Shown in pieces: positions 1,248 to 14,512 of a DNA stretch of 64,000 nucleotides (the stretch's first letter is position 1; each line of letters begins with the position of its first letter). Below the pieces are notes generated by a model. That model did no database searches and had not been told where the DNA came from. It saw only the letters and a program-made list of their open reading frames with translations. Made by a program: the position numbers and the translations under genes. Source of the DNA: an uncultured Opitutia bacterium (lineage in GTDB: Bacteria; Verrucomicrobiota; Verrucomicrobiia; Opitutales; Puniceicoccaceae); NCBI GenBank assembly GCA_913056175.1, contig CAJXLM010000010.1, forward strand, positions 1-64,000, written 5' to 3'.

Positions 1248-2096
1248 TCAGGGCTGGCAGAGGATCGGGATCCGGCAGCGGCGGATGAGCTCGGAGGTGG
1301 TGCTGCCGATAAGGAAGCGGCGGAGGCGACCGTGCCCGTAGGCGCCAATGGCGAGAAGACCGATGGCTTCCCGCTCCACGTAGTCGGCGATGACATCCTC
1401 GGCGAGACCCGCGAGCATCTGCGGGCGCACGGAGAAGCCCGCCGCCTGGAGGCGCTCCTCGGCGGAACGGAGTCGTTCCACCGCCCGCTCGTCCCCGTCC
1501 CGCTCCTCGCTGACGAGGAGGAGGTGGAGGGGGAGGTCGTGCAGCCAGGTGGCCTCCTCCAGCCAGGCGAGAAGCTTTTCCCCGGTCGCGCTCCCGTCGT
1601 AGGCGACGGCGAGATTGCCCGGGGCGGAGAACTTCCGGTTCGTGACCAGGCAGGGCTTGTCCACCGAACGGATCACCCGCTCGAGGGTCGACCCGAGATG
1701 TTCGATGGCGTGCTCCGCCGACTCGCCGCGCTTGCCGAGGACGACGAGATCCCGCGGACCGGCCGCCTCCACAATGGTGTCCACGAGGAAACCGGTTCGC
1801 GTCTCGAATTCATAGGACTCCTCCCGGCCGTCCTCGGAAAGCGCTTGGCGGTCGCTCTCCTCGATGAGGCGGGCCTTCTCCTTCTCCGACTCCTGCAGGG
1901 TGCGGATCAGGTTCTGGTAGGGCTGCACGCCGATGCTCCCGCTCAGGTCCATGACCGCCGGCATCTCGAACCGGCGCAGGTCGGAGACGTAGAGGGCGTG
2001 GATCCGGGCGCTTGCCCGGCCGGCCGCCCAGGAAGCGTAGGAGCGGGCCTGGGCGGCGTAGCTGGAGCCGTCCGTGCAGTAGAGGAGTTCCCTCAT
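1248..2096 (-). CDS. Universal stress protein with two UspA domains
   Basis: The 282-residue protein is about twice the size of a single UspA domain. It opens with a beta strand-loop MRELLYCTDGSSYA, and the second half begins near residue 155 with NLAVAYDGSATGE, the usual start of a UspA fold. The C-terminal half carries the ATP-binding pattern G-2x-G-9x-G-S (GAYG...IGS near residues 251-266), and a looser version sits in the first half (GKRG...LGS). Proteins of this family act in the cytoplasm in stress survival, and the nucleotide-binding type can be adenylated or bind ATP. The start ATG overlaps the stop of glgC by 4 bp (ATGA), so it is probably translationally coupled to glgC. Confidence 0.9.
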   Translation of the reverse strand: MRELLYCTDGSSYAAQARSYASWAAGRASARIHALYVSDLRRFEMPAVMDLSGSIGVQPYQNLIRTLQESEKEKARLIEESDRQALSEDGREESYEFETRTGFLVDTIVEAAGPRDLVVLGKRGESAEHAIEHLGSTLERVIRSVDKPCLVTNRKFSAPGNLAVAYDGSATGEKLLAWLEEATWLHDLPLHLLLVSEERDGDERAVERLRSAEERLQAAGFSVRPQMLAGLAEDVIADYVEREAIGLLAIGAYGHGRLRRFLIGSTTSELIRRCRIPILCQP

Positions 2097-6214: not shown

Positions 6215-6589
6215 ATGACAGCGGCCGACTTCATCCCCGTCCTCATCCAAATCCTCCTCGCGATCGGGCTGGGCGGTGCCATCCTCACCGCCAGTGTGAT
6301 CTTCGGTCAACGGGCCCGCCGCAACCGCATCAAGGATACCCCCTACGAGTGCGGGATGCCGCCCGCCGGCCCGGGACGGACGCGGTACTCGGTGAAGTTC
6401 TACGTCACCGCGATGCTCTTCATCCTCTTCGACATCGAGGTCGTCTTCCTCATTCCCTGGATCCTCTCCTACCGCGAGTTCCTCGTGAATGGCATCCCCA
6501 TCATTGGGCCCATCGCCGTCTTCTTCGGGATCTTCATTCTCGGGCTGATCTATGAGCTGAAGAAGGGGGCCATCCAGTGGGAGAAGTGA
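6215..6589 (+). CDS. nuoA: NADH-quinone oxidoreductase subunit A
   Basis: This small membrane subunit of respiratory complex I is 124 residues with three transmembrane helices (about 7-27, 66-86 and 94-116). The conserved loop TPYECGMPPAG contains the subunit A Cys. FYVTAMLFILFDIEVVFLIPW is the family signature in helix 2; the run contains the conserved acidic pair D and E. The usual nuoB partner does not follow. Instead the diadenylate cyclase gene starts 41 bp downstream, so subunit A is separated from the rest of the complex in this genome, or this is a second copy. Upstream is a short spacer to the divergent DUF3108 gene. Confidence 0.93.
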   Translation: MTAADFIPVLIQILLAIGLGGAILTASVIFGQRARRNRIKDTPYECGMPPAGPGRTRYSVKFYVTAMLFILFDIEVVFLIPWILSYREFLVNGIPIIGPIAVFFGIFILGLIYELKKGAIQWEK

Positions 6590-6630: not shown

Positions 6631-8001
6631 ATGAATCTCGACCGATTCATCACGGCCAACCGGATCATTGACCTCAGCAGCGACGACCTGACCGGAGCTC
6701 TCCGTGAGCTGATCGGCACCTGCGATTTCGAGGAGATCGCCCAGTACGGGAAGAAACGGCTCCTCCGGGAACTGCTCGACCGCGAGCAGACCATGACCAC
6801 CAACCTCGGCAACGGGGTAGCCCTGCCCCACCTGCGCCTTCCCCTGAAGCGCCGCTACCTGCTGGCCATCGGGCGCTGTCCCCGTGGATTGAGCCACGAG
6901 GGATCGGAGGATTACGCGGACATCCGCCTGGTGGTCCTGCTCCTCGCCTCGACGACCGCCCGCAACTACCTCAACGCCCTCTCCACCCTCGCGGGCACCT
7001 TCCAGGACCAGAACCAGGTCCGCCGCCTCGTGGAGGCGGAGGGCATCGTCTCCTTCCGCCGCGAGGTCCGCCGGATCCTCAGCGGCGAGTCCCGGCAACC
7101 CAGCGGGAAACCCACCCGCATCAACCGGCTCATCCTCCGGGAGGCCGAGAAGATCGCCAACGCCACGGGCTGCCGCTCCGTCCTCCTCTTCGGCGATACC
7201 TTTGCCGGGGGCATCGAGCTGACGGACAATTTCCAGTCGCAGCGCACCCTCCTGATCACCCGCTCCGGTGCCGAGTCCGTCGAGACCGAGGGCAAGGTCA
7301 GCGAGGTGCTCTCCATCCGCGCCTTTTCCGCGAACCGGATGTCCCAGCTGCGCTCGGCCATCCTCATCGGGCTGACCCGCGGCCTCCTCGCCCCCGACGA
7401 GCTGGTTTGCTGCGTGGGGGGGCTTCCCCAGAGCAACCGCTTCGACACCATCCTCATCGTCGACGTGGCCCGGGAGTTCCGGGCGCTCTTCTCCAGCCGG
7501 GAGCACGCGGTGCCCCCCACCCTGCCGCCCACCCTCCGGCCGGAAGTCCTCGAGCGGGTTCTCGCCATCGCCACCGAGCTCGGCATGGAGGGCCGGGAGG
7601 GGCGCAAGGTCGGCTGCCTCTTCGTCCTCGGGGATACCCAGAAGGTCCTCGAGTACTCCAAGCCGCTCGTGCTGAACCCGTTCCACGGCTACCGCGAGGA
7701 GGAGCGCAATGTCCTGAATCCCTTCATGGACGAAACCGTCAAGGAATTCTCCTCCCTCGACGGGGCCTTCATCATCCGCGGCAACGGGGTCATCGAAGCC
7801 GCCGGGACCCTTCTCCGCGCACCGGACTACCCGGACTTGCTCCCGAGCGGGCTGGGCGCTCGCCACGCCGCCGCCGCCGCCATCACCAAAAGCACCCGCA
7901 GCGTAGCCATCGTGGTCAGTGAGAGCACCGGGCAGGTCACCCTCTTCGCGGACGGCGATCTGGTCCCCCTGCTCGGGCATCCGCTCGGCGGGAATTTCTG
8001 A
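6631..8001 (+). CDS. Diadenylate cyclase (DisA_N/DAC domain) with N-terminal PTS IIA-like domain
   Basis: The 456-residue protein has three recognisable parts. Residues 1 to about 145 look like a PTS EIIA-Ntr/fructose domain, with GNGVALPHLRLP placing a conserved histidine at position 67, the usual phosphorylation site. Residues about 165-270 (RLILREAEKIANATGCRSVLL... FDTILIVDV) resemble the pyruvate-kinase C-terminal-like alpha/beta domain seen in archaeal DacZ. The C-terminus holds the cyclase motifs: DGA at 377-379 and GARH at 409-412, followed by SVAIVVSES. The family joins two ATP into cyclic di-AMP, a second messenger for potassium and osmotic control. In the second motif the usual RHR is RHA here. 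No membrane segment is visible, unlike CdaA. It follows nuoA by 41 bp and probably shares its transcript. Activity is inferred, not shown. Confidence 0.85.
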   Translation: MNLDRFITANRIIDLSSDDLTGALRELIGTCDFEEIAQYGKKRLLRELLDREQTMTTNLGNGVALPHLRLPLKRRYLLAIGRCPRGLSHEGSEDYADIRLVVLLLASTTARNYLNALSTLAGTFQDQNQVRRLVEAEGIVSFRREVRRILSGESRQPSGKPTRINRLILREAEKIANATGCRSVLLFGDTFAGGIELTDNFQSQRTLLITRSGAESVETEGKVSEVLSIRAFSANRMSQLRSAILIGLTRGLLAPDELVCCVGGLPQSNRFDTILIVDVAREFRALFSSREHAVPPTLPPTLRPEVLERVLAIATELGMEGREGRKVGCLFVLGDTQKVLEYSKPLVLNPFHGYREEERNVLNPFMDETVKEFSSLDGAFIIRGNGVIEAAGTLLRAPDYPDLLPSGLGARHAAAAAITKSTRSVAIVVSESTGQVTLFADGDLVPLLGHPLGGNF

Positions 8002-12968: not shown

Positions 12969-13345
12969 TGCACCGATCCTCGGATCTCCCACAGGCCGCA
13001 AGGCGGAAAAGAACCACGGCGCCCTCATGGATGAACCGGAACCACCCCGAATCTCCGAAGAAACACCACAGAGGGCGCAGAGAGCACAGAGGGGAAGACA
13101 GGAGAAGACCGGCCGCCGACCCCGTCCTCCTCCTCACCCCCCATTCCCTCCGTGGTTTCCCTCCCTTCCCAGAGTCCCGCTCTCCATCCCCCCACGCGCC
13201 CGAGGAACACCAAGCCCCCTCCCCCTCTGTGTCCCCTGTGCCCTCTGTGGTGGACAACGAATCACCCGGAATCTCTGAAGAAACACCACAGAGGGCGCAG
13301 AGAGCACAGAGGGAAAGACGGGAGGAGACCGGCCGCCGACCAGCT

Positions 13346-13888
13346 ACAAGAATCGGCGGTCCGCTGTCCTCTTCGGGAAAGGACGCCCTGCGGATTCCTT
13401 GGCAGAGTCACGCAGGAAACAGACTCTCTGCATCTTCAGAGGACAAAGCGTTTCACTCCCTCCTTCAACCGACGGACGTTGAAGTTGAGAATCAGTCCGG
13501 TTTTCAGACCCGACAACCTCAGGTACGACAGCAACTGGGCCTCGTGGATGGGCTCGATGTTCTTCACGCTCTTGAGTTCGAGGATCAGCGTGTCCGCCAC
13601 CAGCAAGTCCACCCGGTAGCCACATTCCAGAGAGACCCCCTTGTACTGGACCGGCAGCGGCACCTGGCACGCGTGCTTGATCCCATTCAAGTCCAGTTCC
13701 CGGCTCAGGCATCGCTGGTAGGACGACTCGAGAAGGCCCGGCCCCAAAAATCGGTGCACCTCAATCGCACAACCTATCACCTTACCGGAAAGCAGATCCA
13801 CCGACATTGCTCCCAATCCGTAATCATCCAAAAGTCATCCTACCCGGATGGCGTTTGTACCCCAAAGAACTTTTTTCAATATAAACCG
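13346..13888. mobile_element. Putative insertion-like segment carrying the GxxExxY gene within repeat unit 2
   Basis: This stretch interrupts a repeat unit: left end features stop near 13345 and right end features resume near 13889. It holds the GxxExxY gene and about 80 bp flanks, including an AT-rich patch TTTTTTCAATATAAA just inside the right border that could hold the promoter on the minus strand. No transposase or target duplication is visible. Calling it mobile is inference from the arrangement. Confidence 0.4.
13436..13807 (-). CDS. GxxExxY family protein, PD-(D/E)XK nuclease-like
   Basis: The 123-residue protein (from ATG 13807; a TTG eight codons upstream is possible) carries the family motif LGPGLLESSY, with G24, E27 and Y30. 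It also has VDLLVADTLILELK, placing D67, E77 and K79 in the D-(x)n-ExK layout of PD-(D/E)XK nucleases. No function is established for the family. It sits alone, inside one inverted-repeat unit of the surrounding array, reading opposite to the flanking photolyase promoter-side mini-gene. Its codon use is less GC-biased than its neighbours, for example AAGTTGAGAATCAGTCC in antisense, which suggests transfer. Confidence 0.88.
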   Translation of the reverse strand: MSVDLLSGKVIGCAIEVHRFLGPGLLESSYQRCLSRELDLNGIKHACQVPLPVQYKGVSLECGYRVDLLVADTLILELKSVKNIEPIHEAQLLSYLRLSGLKTGLILNFNVRRLKEGVKRFVL

Positions 13889-14512
13889 CTCCGTGGTGAA
13901 CCGGAACCACCCGGAATCTCCGAAGAAAAACCACAGAGGGCACAGAGAGCGCAGAGAGAAAGACAGGAGGACACCGGCCGCCGACCCCTTCCTCCTCCTC
14001 ATCCCTCCCCCCTTCCCTCCGTGGTTTCCCTCCCTTCCCAGAGTGCCGCTCTCCATCCCCCCACGGACCCGAGGAACACCAAGCCCCCTCCCCCTCTGTG
14101 TCCTCTGTGCCCTCTGTGGTGAACAACGAACCACCCGGAACCTCCGAAAAAAACACCACAGAGGGCGCAGAGAGCACAGAGAGAAAGACAGAAGGAGACC
14201 GGCCGCCGACCCTATTCCCCTCCTCGCCCCGCCCCCCTGCCTCCGTGGTTTCCCTCCCTTCCCAGAGTCCCGCTCTCCATCCCCCCACGCCCCCGAGGAA
14301 CACCAAGCCCCCTCCCCCTCTGTGTCCCCTGTGCCCTCTGTGGTGAACAACGAACCACCCGGAATTTCCGAAGAAACACCACAGAGGACGCAGAGAGCAC
14401 AGAGGGAAAGACAGGAGGAGACCGGCCGCCGACCCCCTCCTCCTCCTCACCCCTCTTCCCTTCCCTCCGTGGTTTCCCTCCCCCCGCGCCGGGACGAAAG
14501 CCATGGCCGGCG

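Follow-up and report, generated by a model that had tools for sequence, protein, structure and literature searches.

The 64,000-nucleotide stretch of DNA analysed here (hereafter the window; contig CAJXLM010000010.1 of an uncultured Opitutia bacterium) carries a gene for a diadenylate cyclase (DAC) whose product joins a PTS EIIA domain, a DacZ_P domain and a DAC catalytic domain in a single polypeptide (Table 1). The boundaries of the open reading frame are exact, with an ATG at 6631 and a stop codon at 7999–8001.

Table 1. Position and supporting evidence of the features at the DAC locus (window coordinates).
Feature	Position	Strand	Evidence and remarks
nuoA, complex I subunit A	6215..6589	+	PF00507, E 1.7e-29; 41 bp upstream of DAC
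Diadenylate cyclase gene, EIIA–DacZ_P–DAC, 456 aa	6631..8001	+	ORF reading, Pfam; sole DAC in genome
PTS EIIA-2 (EIIA-Ntr-like) domain, residues 38–137	6742..7041	+	PF00359, PtsN profile match, Foldseek
Codon of His67, putative phosphorylation site in GNGVALPH	6829..6831	+	Alignment to PtsN phospho-His motif
DacZ_P, probable sensor domain, residues 165–284	7123..7482	+	PF21755, E 8.4e-10
DAC catalytic domain, residues 318–443; DGA 377–379, RH 411–412	7582..7959	+	PF02457, E 2.7e-23

All three Pfam matches of the window DAC exceeded their curated cut-offs in hmmscan, with PTS_EIIA_2 (PF00359) reaching an E-value of 3.9e-15 and 56.5 bits against a cut-off of 27, and DAC (PF02457) 82.3 bits, also against a cut-off of 27. 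Solved PtsN/EIIA-Ntr chains matched a 40-member family profile (E 2.9e-13), as did CdaA chains, and in the profile search His67 aligned with the phospho-His motif of the solved PtsN/EIIA-Ntr proteins. An AlphaFold model of the protein had a mean pLDDT of 79 and a pTM of 0.50, so that its domain folds are usable and the relative placement of the domains is unreliable. The EIIA fold reaches approximately residue 150, past the end of the Pfam match, and the best Foldseek matches of the model were EIIA-Ntr 2a0j (E 6.6e-9) and many CdaA structures. The initial annotation had read a 456-residue protein with EIIA-Ntr-like, DacZ-like and DAC domains, a conserved phospho-histidine position at His67, and the two DAC motifs at 377–379 and 411–412. 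Comparison of the N-terminus with the EIIA profile and structure prediction, which it had proposed, bear this reading out, and the motifs are where it had placed them.

Upstream of the DAC gene, nuoA directly precedes it on the same strand not only in the window but in 26 of 37 loci across the order, with a gap of 3–154 bp. Because nuoA keeps this place so widely, the two genes are likely to be co-transcribed, and a respiratory or energy link of the DAC via nuoA is possible. Elsewhere in the window, a tandem universal stress protein gene (1248–2096, reverse strand) has glgC-like and glmS-like genes nearby; nucleotide binding is a property of some Usp proteins.

The three-domain EIIA-DAC was present in 30 of the 35 relatives searched, and the family profile matched 271 of 307 Opitutales genomes, mostly at full length, with a minority of weak or partial matches. 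Among GTDB contigs we found 462 related stretches; the 80 that were kept were nearly all titled Opitutia, Opitutales or Verrucomicrobia, and the named records with an EIIA-DAC were from Opitutales, Puniceicoccaceae, Cerasicoccus, Coraliomargarita and other Verrucomicrobiota. Outside Opitutales, full-length matches were confined to f42, f48 and f91, families from other classes of the phylum in which His67 is present, and other orders of the same class gave weak matches only, to separate EIIA genes. In Opitutales the EIIA–DacZ_P–DAC protein is thus the usual form of DAC, and it is the predicted sole c-di-AMP synthase of the window bacterium and of most members of the order. A few Opitutales genomes hold a second, shorter DacZ_P-DAC protein without EIIA (L180:3738–4637; L261), which in G201 occurs beside the full-length one. 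An apparent gene fission in G494 was rejected, as the DAC piece runs up to the end of the available contig sequence and an assembly break is likelier. One GTDB contig titled 'Pseudomonadales bacterium' (L067) carries an Opitutales DAC; it shares its binning project with the near-identical L066 and is probably mislabelled.

Use of the name DacD for a class of bacterial DACs reportedly goes back to Corrigan & Gruendling in 2013. The representatives listed for this class are Lacunisphaera, Puniceicoccaceae, Coraliomargarita, Opitutae and Verrucomicrobia (Braun et al., 2019, PMC6741144). As these are the same organisms that carry the EIIA-DAC as their DAC, the Opitutales protein is very likely the uncharacterised DacD class, an assignment made by shared organisms and not by sequence comparison. 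Given this assignment, its architecture is very likely already known. Our literature search found no paper on an EIIA-fused DAC, and no function, PTS partner or phosphorylation of DacD was described in the literature examined, the scope of which ended short of the class-defining paper of Corrigan & Gruendling (2013) and of 'All DACs in a row' (Galperin, 2023).

Each part of the protein resembles a known system and departs from it. Archaeal DacZ/CdaZ has the same order of DacZ_P and DAC, and the corresponding equivalog model NF041371 matched residues 237–445 of the window DAC with 122.6 bits against a cut-off of 430. However, archaeal DacZ has no EIIA, and its operon partner in haloarchaea is mscS2 (PMC6741144), whereas nuoA stands beside the window DAC. 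With EIIA-Ntr/PtsN the window EIIA shares the fold, the phospho-His motif, the lack of a transport partner among those found and an expected regulatory role; in contrast to PtsN, it is fused to a DAC, has Tyr113 for the second His and has an EI partner without a GAF domain, and the window protein scored 39.1 with the PtsN equivalog TIGR01419 (cut-off 138.7). CdaA (DacA) shares the catalytic fold and motifs, but it has N-terminal membrane helices and the motifs RHR and SEE where the window DAC has soluble-type domains, RHA and SES.

Residue conservation was counted over 230 aligned family rows. Position 67 is His in 188/230, and where EIIA proteins have their second active-site His, the family has a near-invariant Tyr113 (Tyr in 201/230). 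Asp377, Gly378, Arg411, His412 and Ser430 of the catalytic domain are unchanged in all rows covering them (229/230), which include rows from reduced genomes of 0.7–1.1 Mb. Ala379 of the DGA motif gives way to Cys, Gly or Ser in 23 rows. Position 413 is Ala in 187/230 and otherwise mostly Ser, Thr or Met, so that the motif reads RHA, not RHR, and Ser432 takes the place of the last Glu of SEE throughout the family (SES). The window protein lacks the third Arg of the DAC motif GxRHRxA and has only the first Glu of SEE. It had been suggested in the initial annotation that RHA for RHR may alter activity; the substitution is real, but it occurs throughout the family, and we rejected it as a peculiarity of the window protein.

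The window genome encodes an EI (G000:C48, 601 aa; PF05524, PF00391 and PF02896) with an intact GGQTGHT active site, in which the domain search found no GAF domain, and an HPr (G000:C17, 97 codons) with GIHARP and a Ser46-like NAKS motif. The EIIA of the DAC is the only EIIA_2 domain in this genome. The only other EIIA found is an EIIA-man, part of a DhaM-type EIIA-HPr-EI fusion adjoining a DhaL-like gene, and among the 35 relatives EIIA-man was found in this genome only. EI and HPr occur together with the DAC's EIIA as sole EIIA_2 in 16/35 relatives. In 14/35, EI, HPr and an intact His67 are present and the DAC carries the sole EIIA among the two types searched (EIIA_2 and EIIA-man), and G032 has EI, HPr and its sole EIIA_2 in a DAC that is without the His. 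Across the order EI was found in 271 of 307 genomes, and those without it belong mostly to families with genomes of 0.7–1.1 Mb. One genus with EI and mostly without a DAC match (f20, g21) has a free EIIA with an intact PH motif, located between P-type ATPase and adenylosuccinate-synthase-like genes (L184:3367–3921). In f17, a PII (GlnB-type) gene lies approximately 2.6 kb upstream of the EIIA-DAC gene (L031:5537–5872).

We asked whether His67 or the whole EIIA domain was lost where EI is absent, using the DACs of EI-less genomes and, as a conservative choice, those of divergent EI-bearing ones. Among EI-less lineages, His67 is replaced by Tyr in f27/g226 (7 genomes) and in part of f7/g229, by Asn or a degenerate site in f101, and in f25 and f26 (g221, g234) the EIIA domain has been deleted outright with the DAC intact. 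Losses in EI-bearing lineages left the domain in place: His67 became Tyr in f4 and Ser, Cys or Asn in f20/g46, and was lost in one genome of f17. Some EI-less reduced genomes retain His67 (genus g8 of f7, G028 and G031). G531 and G537, in which His67 is kept and no EI was found, were rejected as further such cases: they are 86–89% complete and their genus mates G233 and G502 have EI, so that their own EI was probably missed.

Loss of the His or of EIIA was associated with absence of EI at the level of genomes, with relatedness ignored (Fisher p = 1.3e-6), and at the level of genera (p = 0.004). A tree built from the DacZ_P and DAC domains placed 5 of the 10 losses on the 18% of branch length that is EI-less and 5 on the other 82% (binomial p = 0.02), so that the rate of His loss per branch length was approximately 4.7-fold higher where EI is absent. 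This enrichment is as expected if His67 is a PTS phospho-acceptor in most members. As DacZ_P has diverged to the same extent as EIIA in lineages without EI, part of the signal reflects general relaxation, and we do not claim an EIIA-specific acceleration of rate. With this and the exceptions in both directions, the concentration of losses in EI-less lineages gives moderate support, at the level of sequence, to the view that His67 is useful mainly when EI exists. None of the genes compared had lost its DAC domain while retaining EIIA; as the DAC is kept without EIIA and the reverse was not observed, the DAC looks like the indispensable output.

On balance we think it probable that c-di-AMP synthesis by the window DAC is controlled by the PTS, with the protein as terminal acceptor of a regulatory, non-transport PTS. 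EI would take phosphate from PEP and pass it by way of HPr to His67. Dimerisation or activity of the DAC would then depend on whether EIIA is phosphorylated, probably in combination with a ligand or dimer contact in DacZ_P, and c-di-AMP output would track the PEP:pyruvate ratio. The domains and motifs, the order-wide fusion, the presence of EI and HPr in the genome and the association of loss with EI all support PTS control; the loss of His67 in some EI-bearing lineages, its retention in some EI-less ones, the equal divergence of DacZ_P and the Tyr in place of the second His speak against it, as does the lack of an identified c-di-AMP receptor, including the riboswitch in 34/35 relatives. The initial annotation had named carbon or nitrogen status as the input. 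The relay upstream that this calls for is present, but an EI without GAF lacks the glutamine-sensing arm of a PtsP-type PTS-Ntr, so that PEP/pyruvate is the likelier input and nitrogen status was rejected as the main one.

Downstream, the pathway probably serves K+ and osmotic homeostasis, by analogy with the roles of PtsN and c-di-AMP in K+ control. K+ systems are targets of PtsN (PMC11808508, PMC9239096), which in its unphosphorylated form inhibits the K+/H+ antiporter YcgO (PMC11808508), and c-di-AMP is a signal for the availability of K+ (PMC8822347). A c-di-AMP riboswitch was rejected as the output, as it was absent in 34/35 relatives; an Rfam search of the window returned tRNAs only. Finely balanced, and offered tentatively, is the wider proposal that the whole EI–HPr chain in Opitutales could be a dedicated relay with one endpoint, a c-di-AMP synthase under direct PTS phosphorylation control, with that control released at each loss of EI.

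An unlikely though serious alternative is that EIIA works independently of phosphorylation, as a regulatory or docking module for HPr, a K+ transporter or another partner in the manner of unphosphorylated PtsN, and that the His is ancestral and used only sometimes. This would account for the EIIA domains kept without the His in f4, f20/g46 and f27/g226, for the His kept without EI in f7/g8, G028 and G031, and for Tyr113. It fits poorly with the higher rate of His loss where EI is absent, with the conservation of His67 in 188/230 rows and with the persistence of EI and HPr in many genomes that have no other EIIA of the searched types.

We consider it very unlikely that the signal flows the other way, with c-di-AMP synthesis or ligand binding by DacZ_P setting the phosphate held by EIIA and the DAC thereby regulating the PTS. 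The fused EIIA does face an EI/HPr pair for which no transport EIIs of the searched types were recognised, but the DAC motifs stay when EIIA is lost or deleted, and the opposite loss was not seen. The smallest probability of all falls to a catalytically dead DAC, in which case the protein would be a nucleotide-sensing PTS component only. Here the departures from CdaA and DisA, RHA for RHR and SES for SEE, are the argument in favour; yet these hold across the whole family, the protein is the only DAC in its genome, and the five catalytic-domain residues above are invariant even in reduced genomes.

New here are the EI and HPr with intact sites, the DAC's EIIA as sole EIIA of the searched types in 14/35 relatives, the association of His67 or EIIA loss with absence of EI, and the position of nuoA upstream in 26/37 loci. 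The reading we prefer, PTS control of the DAC, would place c-di-AMP signalling in Opitutales directly under the influence of energy or carbon status. The control of DAC enzymes is a standing question, and the output of the orphan EI/HPr systems of Gram-negative phyla is often not known; if PTS control is true, the fused EIIA-DAC would answer both for one order, and PtsN and c-di-AMP, each known on its own as a regulator of K+ homeostasis, would be joined in one polypeptide. Natural H67Y, H67S and EIIA-deleted variants exist for comparison.

Further along the window, at 13039–14482, there are five copies of a 131-nt element with 66–92% identity to the reference copy. The element has inverted arms (CACCACAGAGG...CCTCTGTGGTG), and its copies lie approximately 220 bp apart, with one larger gap.
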